Assembly (NCBI GenBank): GCA_026985075.1
Contig: JALSQX010000016.1
Coordinates: 1-64,000, forward strand
DNA from: Blastocatellia bacterium
Lineage (GTDB): Bacteria > Acidobacteriota > Blastocatellia > HR10 > J050
DNA: 64,000 nucleotides
Direction of reading: 5' to 3'
The notes beneath the pieces were generated by a model. The model ran no database searches. It was not told where the DNA came from and saw nothing but the letters and a program-made list of their open reading frames with translations. Numbering within the stretch: position 1 is the stretch's first letter; each line of letters begins with the position of its first letter. The position numbers were made by a program, and so were the translations under genes. Below are positions 1,887-12,574 of the stretch, piece by piece.

Positions 1887-3671
<1,785 letters not shown>

Positions 3672-3885
3672 ACCAATCCTCATAACCATAGCATCATGTA
3701 GAACTTCCGGTCAAGCTGATTACGGTTGAATGAATCATCACCGCTCATCTCCTCTCTCTGTGACATTCCCATCCTCAGTAATAGAGAGCGATGGCGCTCG
3801 AATGATACACATTTTTTGCGGAAAATGTGCTCCGGCGGCGGGAGACGTTCGAGACTTGCAATCCCGGTGAAAAAGTGAAAAACTA

Positions 3886-3947: not shown

Positions 3948-4523
3948 ATGAGCGATTATGGGAAAGCTACGGATACGCAGCTGATTGCTGCGTGTCTGGA
4001 TGGTGAGGCGGAGGCCTGGGAAGAACTCTTGAAGCGCTATCGGCGGCTCATTTACTCTATTCCTTATAAATACGGCCTCTCCCCCGATCAGGCTGCCGAT
4101 ATCTTTCAGTCTGTCTGCGTCACGATGTTGGAGCAGTTGCGAACGCTCCGGGATGAGAGGAAGCTCAGTTCCTGGCTGATCACGACGACATTGCGCGAGT
4201 GCTGGAAGGTCAAGCGGCGCGAGCAACGGGAGATCTCCAACCCCGATGATGAAGGGGAGGCGCTGGCCGCTCTTCCGGCTGATGGGCCGTTGCCCGATGA
4301 GCTCGTCCAAACGCTGGAAGAGCAGCACCTGGTGCGACAGGCCATCCAGCGACTCGATGATCGGTGTCGAGCGCTGCTCACCTATCTTTTCTACGAGAAA
4401 GAAGAGTGGTCCTACGAGCGGATCTCCCGACAACTGGGAATGCCGGTGGCCAGCATTGGCCCCACGCGCGGGCGTTGCCTGGAGAAGCTGAAGCGCATTT
4501 TGCGGAAATGGGGGATTTCTTAA
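3948..4523 (+). CDS. ECF-type RNA polymerase sigma factor
   Basis: 191 residues, a normal size for the family. Region 2 is seen in DTQLIAACLDGEAEAWEELLKRY and DIFQSVCVTMLEQL, with the region 2.3-2.4 signature KLSSWLITTTLRECWKVKRR. Region 4 is the helix-turn-helix YERISRQLGMPVASIGPTRGRCLEKLKRIL near the C-terminus. It directs RNA polymerase to a small regulon. It is the first gene of a three-gene plus-strand operon: 83 bases to the anti-sigma-like gene, which then overlaps the CHAT gene. No good ribosome site precedes the ATG, so the start is less certain than the family call. Confidence 0.92.
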   Translation: MSDYGKATDTQLIAACLDGEAEAWEELLKRYRRLIYSIPYKYGLSPDQAADIFQSVCVTMLEQLRTLRDERKLSSWLITTTLRECWKVKRREQREISNPDDEGEALAALPADGPLPDELVQTLEEQHLVRQAIQRLDDRCRALLTYLFYEKEEWSYERISRQLGMPVASIGPTRGRCLEKLKRILRKWGIS

Positions 4524-4606
4524 AGGGAAGTATTTTTTGAGACGATTGGCGCTCTACTGTTCTGGAGGAGCGTGAATGGGGGAGAACGCGAGGAGAAAAT
4601 GAGACG

Positions 4607-5233
4607 ATGCGTTGTTGGCGTATGGAACAACTTTTAGATTTCATTCAAGGCCGGGCCGACACCGAGGTGGCTGACGCAATTCGAGCCCATGTGGATAGTG
4701 GGTGTTCTCGCTGCCGGGCGAATCTGGACTGGTTGAGCAAGATCGTTCAACTCACGGCCACCGACGATTCGGTCGATCCTCCGGAGTGGGTCTTCCATCG
4801 TGCCGTCCGATTATTCCACGAGCTGGGGCCGAAGCGGAAGCCGGGAATGATCGAGCGATTAGTGGCGGCGCTCGCCTTCGATAGCTGGGCGAGCCTGCAA
4901 CCAGCGGTGGTGAGGCAAAGTGGAGCTGCTCCCCGCCAATGCTTGTACCGCGCTGAGCAGTGGGAACTCGATCTTCAATTCGAGCCCGGAGAGATCCCCG
5001 ATACCATCGACTTGACCGGACAGATCCTCAAAGCCGGAGGGACTGGACGGGAGGCCGCGCATCGTCCGGTTCGATTGGTGAGAGAAGACGCCGTAGTAGC
5101 CGAAGCGGTGACCGATGAACTCGGCGAATTCACCATGGATCAACTCGCTCCCGGCCTCTACAATCTCTGCGTGGAGCTCCCCGAACAGGAAATATGGATC
5201 GAGCGCCTGGAAGTCAAATTGAGCAATGAGTGA
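4607..5233 (+). CDS. Soluble anti-sigma-like protein with zinc-finger-like motif and C-terminal beta-sandwich
   Basis: 208 residues; AGGAG at 4591-4595 supports the ATG at 4607. Near residue 30 it has AHVDSGCSRCRANLDWL, an H-x4-C-x2-C arrangement close to the zf-HC2 motif (H-x3-C-x2-C) of anti-sigma factors. There is no membrane segment, so it should be cytoplasmic. The last ~75 residues (DLTGQILKAGG ... DELGEFTMDQLAPGLYNLCVEL) resemble a carboxypeptidase-regulatory or Cna-B-like beta-sandwich. Position straight after an ECF sigma gene supports an anti-sigma role (inference). The 3' end overlaps the CHAT gene by 8 bases (ATGAGTGA), which implies translational coupling. Confidence 0.7.
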   Translation: MRCWRMEQLLDFIQGRADTEVADAIRAHVDSGCSRCRANLDWLSKIVQLTATDDSVDPPEWVFHRAVRLFHELGPKRKPGMIERLVAALAFDSWASLQPAVVRQSGAAPRQCLYRAEQWELDLQFEPGEIPDTIDLTGQILKAGGTGREAAHRPVRLVREDAVVAEAVTDELGEFTMDQLAPGLYNLCVELPEQEIWIERLEVKLSNE

Positions 5234-8120
5234 CGTCGATCCGGACACGACGGACGCTGAGGTCCATCAGGTCCATCAACTCGTCGATCAGCTCCTCGGT
5301 TTTCCCTCGCGCGAGGACGCCTTCGCTTTCCTTCAACAGCACCGAGAACGCATCAATTACACGCTCATTAAACTGCTCAAGGACCAGATCAGTCATCTGG
5401 TTCGCGTCGATTTGAATCGGGCGCTCGAAGTCGCCGATTTGATCACCGTAGCGGCGGAGTTGGCCGGCGATCCGCTCAGCCGCGCCCTGAGCGCACACGC
5501 CCGGGCGATGGCGTTGGACCGTTCGGGGAAATGCGCCGAGGCGCTGAAGCTCTATAATCAAGCGGAGACCATCTATCAGTCTCTGGGCCAGGAGGTGGAA
5601 GCCGCGCGAGTGGCCCGAGCCAAGTTGCCGGTTCTCATGTACCTCGGGCATTACGACCGGGCCCTCCAGGTCGCCGCCGAAGCGCGCCGCGTCCTTCAAC
5701 AGCACGATCAATGGGCTCTGGTGGCTCAGGTCGATGCCAACGTCGGAAGCATCTACGAGCGACTGGCTCAGTATCACACGGCCTTGCGCTACTATCAGCA
5801 GGCGGCCGAAGTGTTCGAGCGACTGAACGATCGGCGGAGCCTGGCACTGGTTCAAGCCAACGAGGCCGTCGTCTACTCCCACCTGAACGAGTTCGAGCGT
5901 TCGTTGGCCCTTTATGAACAGGCGCGACGAATTTACTCCGAACTGGGACTGCACTTATGGGCCATTCGAGTGGACCACAACGTCGCCTGGCTGCACTTCC
6001 TGCGAGGAAAGTTTGATCTGGCGCTCCGGCAATTCCATCGCGTGGAACAAGAAGCGGAAAGGCATGGGGATATCACCCAGGTGGCCGTCTGTCAGCTCGA
6101 TCTGGCCGAAGTCTATCTTCAGCTCAACGCCTTCGAAGACGCCCTGAGGGCCTCGCAGACGGCCATCGAACAATTCGCTCAACTGCAAATGACGGCCGAG
6201 TTGGCCAAGGCCCAAATGTATCATGGCGTCGCTCACCTTCACCTGGGAGCCCTCGACCGCGCCACTCAATCATTGGAGCAGGCGCGCGCGCTCTTCTCCC
6301 AAGAGGGCAATCAGATCTATCAAGCCCTCTGTGATCTCTACTTGGGCGAAGTGGCGCTGAGGGAAGGCGCCTGGTCCCGAGCCTTCGAGCTCTGTCGGGC
6401 CGCCAGTCAAACATTCGAAGCGCATCAGTTGGATAACAAGGCCGCTTATGCTCAATTTCAATTGGCTCGCATTCGGTTCCACGCCGGCGACGTCCAGGCC
6501 GCTCAGCGGTTTTGCCAGCAGGCGCTCCAGAAGATCGAATCTCTGGAAGCGCCTTGGCTGCACTATCAGTGTTTTCATCTGGAAGGGAACATTGCCGAGC
6601 GCCTCGGCGATGAGAGGGCCGCATATCGGAGTTATGAACGGGCCATCCATCACATCGAAGAGATGCGGAGCAGCATCCGGGTAGACGAATTCAAAGCCTC
6701 CTTCGTCAGAGACAAGCTGAAGGTCTACGAGGACATGGTGGCGCTGTGTCTGGAGGACGGTTCGCCGGAGAAGAAACAGCGCGCCTTCGGCTTCGCCGAG
6801 GCGGCCAAATCCCGGGCCCTGGTCGATCTTCTGTCCAATGCGCTGAAGATCAAAAGCCGAGCCGAGTCCCAGATTGACCGGGCATTGATTGAGCGGTGGA
6901 ATGCGCTGCGGGAAGAGCTGGATTGGTATTATAACAAACTCAACGAATATGAATCGCAGCCGCCGCCGCGACCCGTCGAATGGGGTCGAGACCTGCGCCA
7001 GAACATCCGCCAGCGTGAGGAGGAACTGAGCAATCTGCTGCGACAGCTCCAGGTGCAAGATCCGGAGTACTTCTCTCTGCAGAGCGTCCCTCACGTGGCC
7101 AGCGAGGACATCGCCGGCGACCTGGCCGCCGGCGAGATCCTGCTCGAATACAGCATCGCGGGCGATCGCATTGGCGTCTTCGTCATCGATGCCCGTGGCC
7201 TCCGGGTGGCGCAGTTCCTCGGTCCAGCGTCACCAGTGCGCGATTCGCTGAGGAAGCTCCGATTTCAATTGAACAAACACCTCCTTGGCGTCGATTATCT
7301 CGATGCGCATCGGGCTGCGTTACACCGGTTCGTCAATGAACATTTGCGCGAACTCCATCGCGCTCTCATTGAGCCGGTAGCCGACGCCTTAAAAGGAAAG
7401 CGATTGATCATCGTCCCTCACGGATTCCTCCACTACATCCCATTCCACGCCTTGTATGATGGGGAGCACTATGTGATCGATGATTACGAAGTCTCTTATG
7501 CGCCCAGCGCCCATGTGTTTCGGCTGTGCCGCCAGCGCCGCCGAAGGCCGCAGAACGGGTGGACGCCAGCGCTCATCGTCGGCGTGCCGGACGAAAAGCT
7601 CGTCCACATTCGCCAGGAAGTGGAATATATTCGCCGGCTCATCCCCGGCGCCGAGGCGCTGGTGGGCGAGGAAGCGACCCTGGAGCGATTCAGGCGGCGG
7701 GCCCAACAGGCGCGGCTCTTACATCTGGCCTCTCATGCTGTTTTTCGGCGAGATAATCCCCTGTTTTCGGCCATTCAATTATCTCATTCCTGGCTCAATT
7801 TTTACGACATGTTTCACCTGGACCTCCAGGCCGAATTGGTCGTGCTCAGCGCCTGTCAAACGGGCGTGAGCAAGGTGTTCGCCGGCGATGAGCTCATCGG
7901 TCTGATGCGGGGATTTCTGTACGCGGGAGCACCTTCTTTGATTCTCAGTCTCTGGGCCGTTCACGATCAATCGACGGCCGAGATGATGCGCGTCTTCTAC
8001 ACCGAGTTGCAACGGGATCATTCTGCTCGAGCGGCGCTCCGGAAAGCACAACTGGCCATTCGAGAGAGGTATCCGCATCCCTATTACTGGGCTCCATTCG
8101 TGCTCATGGGACGGCCGTGA
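5226..8120 (+). CDS. TPR-CHAT caspase-like protease
   Basis: 964 residues. The N-terminal half (about 20-480) is a run of tetratricopeptide repeats (for example AARVARAKLPVLMYLGHYDRAL and QVDANVGSIYERLAQYHTAL). A charged helical linker follows, then a C-terminal CHAT domain. The predicted dyad is intact: His837 in LLHLASHAVF and Cys877 in VVLSACQTG, followed by AGDELIGLMRGFLYAGAPS and SLWAVHDQSTAEMM, and it ends with YYWAPFVLMG as CHAT proteins do. CHAT proteins are caspase/separase relatives; known members cleave target proteins when a sensor domain is triggered. Here the TPRs would bind the trigger or substrate, and the coupled sigma/anti-sigma genes suggest the target may be the anti-sigma protein (inference). 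Confidence 0.93.
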   Translation: MSDVDPDTTDAEVHQVHQLVDQLLGFPSREDAFAFLQQHRERINYTLIKLLKDQISHLVRVDLNRALEVADLITVAAELAGDPLSRALSAHARAMALDRSGKCAEALKLYNQAETIYQSLGQEVEAARVARAKLPVLMYLGHYDRALQVAAEARRVLQQHDQWALVAQVDANVGSIYERLAQYHTALRYYQQAAEVFERLNDRRSLALVQANEAVVYSHLNEFERSLALYEQARRIYSELGLHLWAIRVDHNVAWLHFLRGKFDLALRQFHRVEQEAERHGDITQVAVCQLDLAEVYLQLNAFEDALRASQTAIEQFAQLQMTAELAKAQMYHGVAHLHLGALDRATQSLEQARALFSQEGNQIYQALCDLYLGEVALREGAWSRAFELCRAASQTFEAHQLDNKAAYAQFQLARIRFHAGDVQAAQRFCQQALQKIESLEAPWLHYQCFHLEGNIAERLGDERAAYRSYERAIHHIEEMRSSIRVDEFKASFVRDKLKVYEDMVALCLEDGSPEKKQRAFGFAEAAKSRALVDLLSNALKIKSRAESQIDRALIERWNALREELDWYYNKLNEYESQPPPRPVEWGRDLRQNIRQREEELSNLLRQLQVQDPEYFSLQSVPHVASEDIAGDLAAGEILLEYSIAGDRIGVFVIDARGLRVAQFLGPASPVRDSLRKLRFQLNKHLLGVDYLDAHRAALHRFVNEHLRELHRALIEPVADALKGKRLIIVPHGFLHYIPFHALYDGEHYVIDDYEVSYAPSAHVFRLCRQRRRRPQNGWTPALIVGVPDEKLVHIRQEVEYIRRLIPGAEALVGEEATLERFRRRAQQARLLHLASHAVFRRDNPLFSAIQLSHSWLNFYDMFHLDLQAELVVLSACQTGVSKVFAGDELIGLMRGFLYAGAPSLILSLWAVHDQSTAEMMRVFYTELQRDHSARAALRKAQLAIRERYPHPYYWAPFVLMGRP

Positions 8121-11503: not shown

Positions 11504-11902
11504 TCATCTCGTCTCCTGACTTTTCTCCCATTGATCCAGGTACTCTTTTACCTTCCGAACGAACGTCCTCGCCGTCTGCAACAATTCCTCGGTTTCTTCT
11601 TCTGATAGGAAGATTCCCGCGCTGTAGTCACCGATGAGCCGCATATCGTACGCTTCACTCAAAGCCTTCCCCAATTCCCGGTCAAAAATACCCGTCTTCA
11701 CGAAGTGCTGCCCGAATAATCCAATGACACCCTTATGGGACGAAGCGGTGAGTTCCTTTGTCAGGAGTGCGGCTTCAGCCATGAAAAACATGGCATAGTA
11801 GCAGCGGGAGACACACGAGTCATAGTCGCCCAACTCCATGGCCTTCTCGGCCGTTTTCAAAAACCGTTCCGCCTTCTCATAGAGATCAGTCAGTTCCTTC
11901 AT
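11504..11902 (-). CDS. HEPN-domain protein (MNT/HEPN pair)
   Basis: 132 residues, all-helical. The HEPN (PF05168-like) core is DSCVSRCYYAMFFMAEAALL, followed by SSHKGVIGLFGQHFVKTG and YDMRLIGDYS, a pattern typical of HEPN proteins encoded next to small nucleotidyltransferases. Such pairs act as toxin-antitoxin or RNA-modifying modules. The usual R-x4-6-H ribonuclease motif is not intact: where many relatives read YYAMFHAA, this one reads YYAMFFMA. The start codon overlaps the stop of the nucleotidyltransferase gene (ATGA), so the two are co-translated. Confidence 0.85.
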   Translation of the reverse strand: MKELTDLYEKAERFLKTAEKAMELGDYDSCVSRCYYAMFFMAEAALLTKELTASSHKGVIGLFGQHFVKTGIFDRELGKALSEAYDMRLIGDYSAGIFLSEEETEELLQTARTFVRKVKEYLDQWEKSQETR

Positions 11903-12219
11903 ACGGCTACTCCTTCTCGCCGTATGTTCACCAGTAGAGGCGAGTTATAGTGGTCGAACGTGTTCCTTGGAACCACGATGACCGAAACGAGTTCTCCTTC
12001 CTCGAGGAGGATCTCGAGGAGAAGATCGTTCAGACTGCGGCGTACTTCTCGAGCATCAAGAGACTCGTCAACGACGACGAGCAGGTCAATATCAGAGCCT
12101 TCCTCTGCTTCTCCCCTGGCCTGAGAACCATAGAGCAGAACGCGGTCAATGCCTCGGCCATATCTCCGAACCAACTCTTCTTTCACCCGGCCCACAAGGT
12201 ATTTCAATTTTTCATCCAT
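11899..12219 (-). CDS. Minimal nucleotidyltransferase (MNT)
   Basis: 106 residues from the ATG at 12219, preceded by GAGGGGG. The signature LLYGSQARGEAEEGSDIDLL shows the G-S-x10-D-x-D catalytic motif of pol-beta-type nucleotidyltransferases. In MNT/HEPN pairs this enzyme adds AMP to the HEPN partner and silences it (known for MntA/HepT). The downstream gene overlaps it by 4 bases; an upstream small ORF ends 28 bases before it. Confidence 0.88.
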   Translation of the reverse strand: MDEKLKYLVGRVKEELVRRYGRGIDRVLLYGSQARGEAEEGSDIDLLVVVDESLDAREVRRSLNDLLLEILLEEGELVSVIVVPRNTFDHYNSPLLVNIRREGVAV

Positions 12220-12247
12220 GGGTACCCCCCTCTGAGAATGAGACATC

Positions 12248-12574
12248 TCATTCTTCCACAACGTCAAGGACTTGGCGTTCTCGCCCCGGTAGGACAACGG
12301 CCATCTCCAGGGGGGGATCAGCGCCCCCCTTTGTCACTAACATGTTCGGCATTTCCTTTCGTGCCAATATCATAGGGAGTGAGTCCCGGCAAATCGGGGA
12401 ACTCATGATGTGCCGATGAAGCCTGATGGCGATTCGCGACGGGTAGACGTGACCAAATCCTCCAAACTCAAAGCCTGATCCCGAGGCAGTGAAAAAAATC
12501 CCTGCTCTGTGGGAGTGAACGGCGACGATTTCTGGTTTTTGATGTCGCGTCGTTTTCGACTCTTTCTTTATCAT
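12248..12574 (-). CDS. Small hypothetical protein upstream of the MNT/HEPN pair
   Basis: 108 residues from the ATG at 12574, with GGAG about 7 bases upstream. Begins MIKKESKTTRHQKPEIVAVH. Same strand and close spacing (28 bases) put it in a possible operon with MNT and HEPN. No family recognised, no membrane segment, no clear motif. It may be a true third gene or part of decayed DNA in this island; coding status is uncertain. Confidence 0.4.
   Translation of the reverse strand: MIKKESKTTRHQKPEIVAVHSHRAGIFFTASGSGFEFGGFGHVYPSRIAIRLHRHIMSSPICRDSLPMILARKEMPNMLVTKGGADPPLEMAVVLPGRERQVLDVVEE

Follow-up and report, generated by a model that had tools for sequence, protein, structure and literature searches.

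We analyzed a 64-kb window (positions 1 to 64,000 of contig JALSQX010000016.1, Blastocatellia bacterium), to which all coordinates refer unless another contig or locus is named, and focused on a four-gene module near its start. On the plus strand lie genes for an extracytoplasmic function (ECF) sigma factor of 191 residues (3948-4523), a 208-residue soluble anti-sigma-like protein that we named ASF (4607-5233), and a 964-residue protease with tetratricopeptide repeats (TPRs) and a CHAT domain (5226-8120). An earlier note on this DNA, made from the letters alone, had described these three open reading frames (ORFs) at the same coordinates as one coupled operon. The second and third genes overlap by 8 bases (stop of ORF 2 at 5233, start of ORF 3 at 5226), whereas the first pair does not overlap and is separated by a gap of 83 bases. 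The fourth member, overlooked in that note, is a predicted secreted S8 subtilase of 600 residues encoded on the minus strand (1887-3689), divergent from the sigma gene. The sigma gene product matches Sigma70_r2 of Pfam (1.2e-11) and sigma70-ECF of NCBIfam (6.3e-23), and its closest solved relative is SigW (5wuq_A, E 1.3e-9), whose partner in that entry is RsiW.

The N-terminal part of ASF (residues 1-74, 4607-4828) contains the H-x4-C-x2-C motif that had been pointed out before (H28, C33, and C36) in addition to C3. A profile of 90 ASFs, collected as described below, aligns with RsiW over profile positions 9-74 (E 4.4e-7), extending through the last helix, and also matches the anti-sigma domains of DdvA (1e-5) and RskA (4e-4), with weak matches to ChrR and RsrA. 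The full H28/C33/C36 set is found in 73 of the 90 ASFs, including the window protein, and position 3, which is Cys in 37 and His in another 37 (74/90), is likely the fourth zinc ligand. Judged by these profile matches, the N terminus of ASF is a zinc anti-sigma (ZAS) domain homologous to RsiW, so that the anti-sigma reading first made from the motif is borne out at the domain level. This domain was detected via the sequence profile and not via a fold search; the zf-HC2 family of Pfam recognizes it in 20/90 ASFs. In the AlphaFold2 model (mean pLDDT 83.8), three confident helices and a less certain fourth are followed by a sandwich from residue 83 on, and the structural neighbors are mostly sandwich domains with middling Z scores of about 6-8.4. 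Together with matches to CarboxypepD_reg in 27/90 ASFs, these neighbors point to a transthyretin-like/carboxypeptidase-regulatory-like beta-sandwich for residues 110-208 (4934-5230). No membrane helix is present in the window protein, as the earlier note had observed, its top 19-residue Kyte-Doolittle window being 1.06; with a hydropathy threshold of 1.6, 88/90 ASFs fall below the limit and the two others reach 1.60 and 1.66. By this measure, ASF is a soluble protein.

Strands 83-94 and 110-116 of the sandwich are joined by a loop (residues 95-109, 4889-4933) that is modeled with low confidence, with block pLDDT values of 65 and 63 and residues 98-101 below 50. This loop carries R103 (codon 4913-4915), which is present in 90/90 ASFs of a family whose mean column identity is 23% and whose sole other invariant position is G138. 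Elsewhere within 94-109, conservation never exceeds 71/90 ASFs. The arginine at the start of the following strand, R110, is conserved in 85/90 and is a second candidate site beside R103. We propose the modeled R103 loop as a candidate CHAT cleavage or docking site.

The third gene product qualifies as a CHAT protease by its domain (PF12770, E 1.5e-69) and its His/Cys dyad, H837 (7734-7736) and C877 (7854-7856), both intact as previously described. Among 74 aligned CHAT rows of the module, the dyad is found in 71/71 rows with letters there, the other 3 being gapped. Separases are the most similar structures to the CHAT model, followed by Csx29 and the anti-sigma protein DdvA, and the domain also matches Csx29 (E 3e-13) and the CHAT domain of DdvA (7e-4) in sequence. 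A hydrophobic N terminus is missing in 67/68 module CHATs. At one locus (L127), CHAT and ASF are fused in a single ORF of 1,215 residues that retains R103; this fusion and the invariant arginine in a loop would fit a CHAT protease that cuts, or binds, the anti-sigma protein. The subtilase has an N-terminal hydrophobic segment and scores 2e-245 against our own hidden Markov model (HMM), of which it is one of two seeds. Across the module, 63/64 S8 genes encode a signal-like segment and 57/64 show a simple triad pattern, suggesting that the subtilase is probably exported. Since ASF is soluble, CHAT lacks a hydrophobic N terminus, and S8 is signal-like, it is CHAT rather than the subtilase that would be placed to meet ASF.

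Mapping the ASF profile across genomes, we found matches at E 1e-3 in 104/162 genomes of the class and in 116/396 genomes of a phylum sample, many of them weak and in the sandwich part only in both sets. For neighborhood analysis, we took the 60 best class matches that lay in genomes other than the window's own and 20 of the 23 listed phylum matches from other classes (E up to 1.4e-8). A scan of named genomes added eight loci, three from an Acidobacteria metagenome-assembled genome (MAG) and five from MAGs labeled Pseudomonadota, Burkholderiales, Comamonadaceae, or Aquabacterium. Removal of three duplicates (L060-L062) left 90 ASFs, 56 of which have at least 4.5 kb on each side. Neighbors were scored with HMMs of the own-genome genes or, for the last 20 loci, with HMMs of a wider set. 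Because all loci were collected via ASF, the counts tell how often ASF has its partners, not the reverse. Near the 90 ASFs, CHAT is found 79 times, sigma 76 times, S8 64 times, and all three 58 times; near the 56 ASFs with full flanks, the counts are 53 for CHAT, 51 for sigma, and 47 for S8. Linkage of the sigma, ASF, and CHAT genes, which the earlier note had made the touchstone of its proposal, is conserved in 50/56 of these neighborhoods, and all four genes are present in 46; the remaining 10/56 are incomplete. The most frequent order, sigma-ASF-CHAT-S8 on one strand, accounts for 32/56.

A related set in the actinomycete Nonomuraea comprises S8 and sigma genes, a CHAT gene read across two frames, and a gene for a 156-residue ASF relative, which matches the ASF profile weakly (3e-7) and has, by reading of its sequence, two arginines six residues apart, a spacing like that of R103 and R110. 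Three other actinobacterial sigma matches were inspected: one adjoins an S8 gene, and the remaining two lack all three partner genes nearby. ASF searches of the plasmid collection gave no match, apart from that of the Nonomuraea protein to itself, and three plasmids with CHAT genes (Azospirillum, Caballeronia, and Paraburkholderia, the stretch of the last being unannotated) showed no sigma or ASF match. Among 369 genomes sampled from the class to which a Burkholderiales MAG belongs, the only clear match was in the source genome; thus, the module is rare in that class.

The own genome (5.2 Mb, 105 contigs) encodes nine CHAT and four ASF genes, including a second full set, sigma-ASF-CHAT-S8, on one strand of another contig (C66). 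CHAT genes on five further contigs (C102, C42, C1, C83, and C103; L016-L019 and L021) adjoin ECF-type sigma genes, that of C103 scoring slightly below the Pfam cutoff, and anti-sigma-like genes. The proteins of these five CHAT genes have an N-terminal hydrophobic stretch that differs in strength and amounts to a hydrophobic segment in most, and their anti-sigma-like neighbors have a hydrophobic segment, some with TPRs and three of the five with zf-HC2. These loci form a second type of sigma/anti-sigma/CHAT set. Overall, a sigma gene lies within about 5 kb of 7/9 CHAT genes, compared to about one CHAT in ten expected by chance in our own arithmetic, which is based on 28 Sigma70_r2 matches and two sigma factors found with another model.

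Membrane proteolysis, a change in redox state, or partner switching is the route by which most anti-sigma factors are released. For the window module, we propose instead a cytosolic sigma/anti-sigma switch worked by a caspase-like protease, in which CHAT cuts ASF after R103 and thereby frees sigma, a model to which we give an even chance of being correct. In the resting state, the RsiW-like zinc domain at the N terminus of ASF would keep the ECF sigma factor bound. On sensing a cue with its TPRs, the CHAT protease would become active, engage the flexible ASF loop, and cut after R103, separating the anti-sigma domain and the first strands from the remaining sandwich. The anti-sigma fragment would then lose its hold on sigma or be degraded, and the freed sigma factor would drive the module or a regulon, with the neighboring exported S8 subtilase as its likely output. 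The sigma binding, the cleavage of ASF, the cut site, and the role of the subtilase are all inferred here. The idea of the earlier note, that CHAT cuts the anti-sigma protein and frees sigma, is plausible and partly supported, and it was partly anticipated in print.

Proteolytic control has already been proposed for the sigma group ECF54, and Craspase and DdvA resemble the module in design; what is new here is the anti-sigma domain, the arginine loop, and the spread of the module. For ECF54, the conserved neighborhood of carboxypeptidase, subtilase, and CHAT-domain proteins led to the proposal that proteolysis exerts control and that no anti-sigma factor takes part (Huang 2015 and Casas-Pastor 2021, as cited in the review PMC8999054). 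The window module has the same neighborhood of carboxypeptidase-type, subtilase, and CHAT proteins, and its likeness to ECF54 is drawn from this neighborhood. However, ECF54 is filed there as lacking an anti-sigma factor, whereas the window module has an anti-sigma domain by profile, and we read the "carboxypeptidase" partner as a regulatory-like sandwich in a family that mostly keeps the zinc anti-sigma motif. A literature search of titles and abstract openings, with most subscription journals outside its reach, found neither the ECF54 partner described as an anti-sigma factor nor an arginine loop in it.

In type III-E CRISPR, the CASP-sigma inhibitor Csx30 is cut within a small flexible loop by the TPR-CHAT protease Csx29 (PMC10028731). 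The window module shares with this Craspase system a TPR-CHAT protease, a putative sigma inhibitor, and an ECF sigma factor, and the low-confidence loop of ASF is comparable to the cut loop of Csx30. The two nevertheless differ in several respects: the window CHAT scores 54.9 bits against an NCBIfam Csx29 cutoff of 300; the putative inhibitor is the 208-residue zinc protein ASF instead of Csx30; Csx29 acts with Cas7-11 and target RNA, whereas the conserved module has no such gene (Cas7-11 was not searched for in the genome); and the residues at which Csx29 cuts differ, being 427-429 (PMC10028731) or L407, after which the cut falls as cited in PMC9729208. DdvA of Myxococcus xanthus (PDB 8rlz, 8rot, and 8rw5) likewise combines a zinc anti-sigma domain with CHAT, but in one transmembrane protein according to the PDB title, whereas the window ASF and CHAT are separate, soluble, and without a hydrophobic segment; its ECF sigma partner is DdvS. 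SigW and RsiW are the closest solved relatives of the window sigma factor and of the ASF anti-sigma domain, respectively. RsiW is freed by membrane proteolysis, whereas ASF, lacking a membrane helix, instead bears the sandwich with its arginine loop. A broader interpretation, which we put somewhat short of an even chance, is that the ECF54-type "carboxypeptidase" is the missing anti-sigma factor of a CRISPR-free Craspase counterpart, in which a TPR-CHAT cut after R103 of the soluble zinc protein frees an ECF sigma factor that switches on a secreted subtilase, spread over Acidobacteriota, Pseudomonadota, and Actinomycetota.

Several observations weigh against the CHAT-driven switch. The H28/C33/C36 motif is incomplete in 17/90 ASFs, including all six on contigs labeled Pseudomonadota or Burkholderiales, and the relative from Nonomuraea lacks a zinc domain. 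R103 is kept in these 17; therefore, its role extends beyond the zinc anti-sigma domain, and it could be structural. The zinc-free ASFs show that it is the loop and sandwich, not the zinc domain, that are constant in ASF, so its constant partner may be CHAT rather than sigma. The own genome has an ASF-CHAT pair without an adjacent sigma gene (C105:209000-225000, L015). On the protease side, model quality is poor in two active-site loops of CHAT, 838-854 and 879-889. In separase, the acidic D2151 reads a P1 Arg (passage of PMC9729208), and its equivalent in the window CHAT could not be established. With the invariant D914, at Cys+37, not placed as that equivalent, our assignment of R103 as P1 derives from the loop and from the invariance of R103.

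The persistence of R103 where the zinc domain is missing, together with the L127 fusion, would also suit ASF as a double inhibitor, whose R103 loop plugs the CHAT site as a pseudosubstrate while its zinc domain holds sigma, so that release of ASF activates both. There is precedent for such a plug in the inhibitory-loop arginine of the gingipain prodomain (passage of PMC4357240), and the RgpB pro/mature complex 4ief is among the weak structural neighbors of ASF (Z 6.0, tied with many unrelated rows). This reading presupposes stable binding of ASF to CHAT, however, and the variable residues after R103 are also expected of a cut site. We consider this arrangement unlikely and, because of the Csx30 analogy, favor cutting of the loop by CHAT over blocking by it.

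Genes adjoining an ECF sigma gene are often targets of that sigma factor. CHAT and the subtilase might accordingly be mere outputs of the regulon, with ASF freed by a ligand or partner of its transthyretin-like domain and CHAT acting elsewhere. The varying gene order, with S8 sometimes on the opposite strand, and the CHAT genes of the own genome that adjoin quite different, membrane-bound anti-sigma genes are in keeping with this, but it leaves the invariant R103 in a loop and the CHAT-ASF fusion unexplained, and it is improbable in our view. Closest to what was proposed for ECF54 (PMC8999054), with proteolysis but no anti-sigma factor, would be that CHAT cuts sigma itself and ASF serves as an adaptor, a reading that the ASFs without a zinc domain would also suit. 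Given the motif kept in most ASFs and the match of their profile to RsiW, we hold this to be very unlikely. Chance adjacency of unrelated genes is refuted by the 46/56 neighborhoods that hold all four. The CHAT-driven switch can be probed at two residues, since point mutants of R103 and C877 make the mechanism testable. To our knowledge, cleavage of a sigma inhibitor by CHAT has been demonstrated solely for CRISPR-bound Csx29. If the switch is real, it would assign free-standing CHAT proteases a substrate together with its cut site and a readout, and the module would show the kind of pathway that type III-E CRISPR may have plugged into.

Several further features were noted around the sigma factor. 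A bipartite element, TAGACAA-N15/16-C(C/T)TAT, precedes the sigma gene at a short distance in eight related loci (L090, L096, L098, L100, L101, L102, L104, and L105) and was considered as a sign of autoregulation. The best two-part word occurs in 7-8 of 65 upstream regions, compared to 4-6 in eight resampled sets, and a genome search returned 14 sites in 10 genomes versus 12 for the reversed pattern. Seven of the 14 sites are at a sigma gene, and those away from it share no theme; hence, a regulon is not supported. The element was also sought in the window and not found there. Elsewhere in the own genome, a sigma gene whose product is 62% identical to the window sigma factor stands alone at a contig end (L020:3878-4468), adjoining methyltransferase-like and transposase-like fragments. 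In the C105 region, the ASF-CHAT pair is followed by a gene for a GAF/PAS-type sensor kinase and a second ASF.

Scanning the window for Rfam families and tRNAs gave no matches, and PADLOC returned a TPR match and nothing else. At another locus (L030:3307-5439), a single ORF matches both CHAT and S8, either a fusion or an assembly error of the MAG. The minus-strand proteins of 122-1789 and 1887-3689 contain extended N-, D-, and G-rich stretches of low complexity, which in the subtilase separate the signal-like segment from the protease domain. Further downstream, two small overlapping genes on the minus strand (11504-12297) resemble, by eye, HEPN and nucleotidyltransferase genes and may form a toxin-antitoxin pair.

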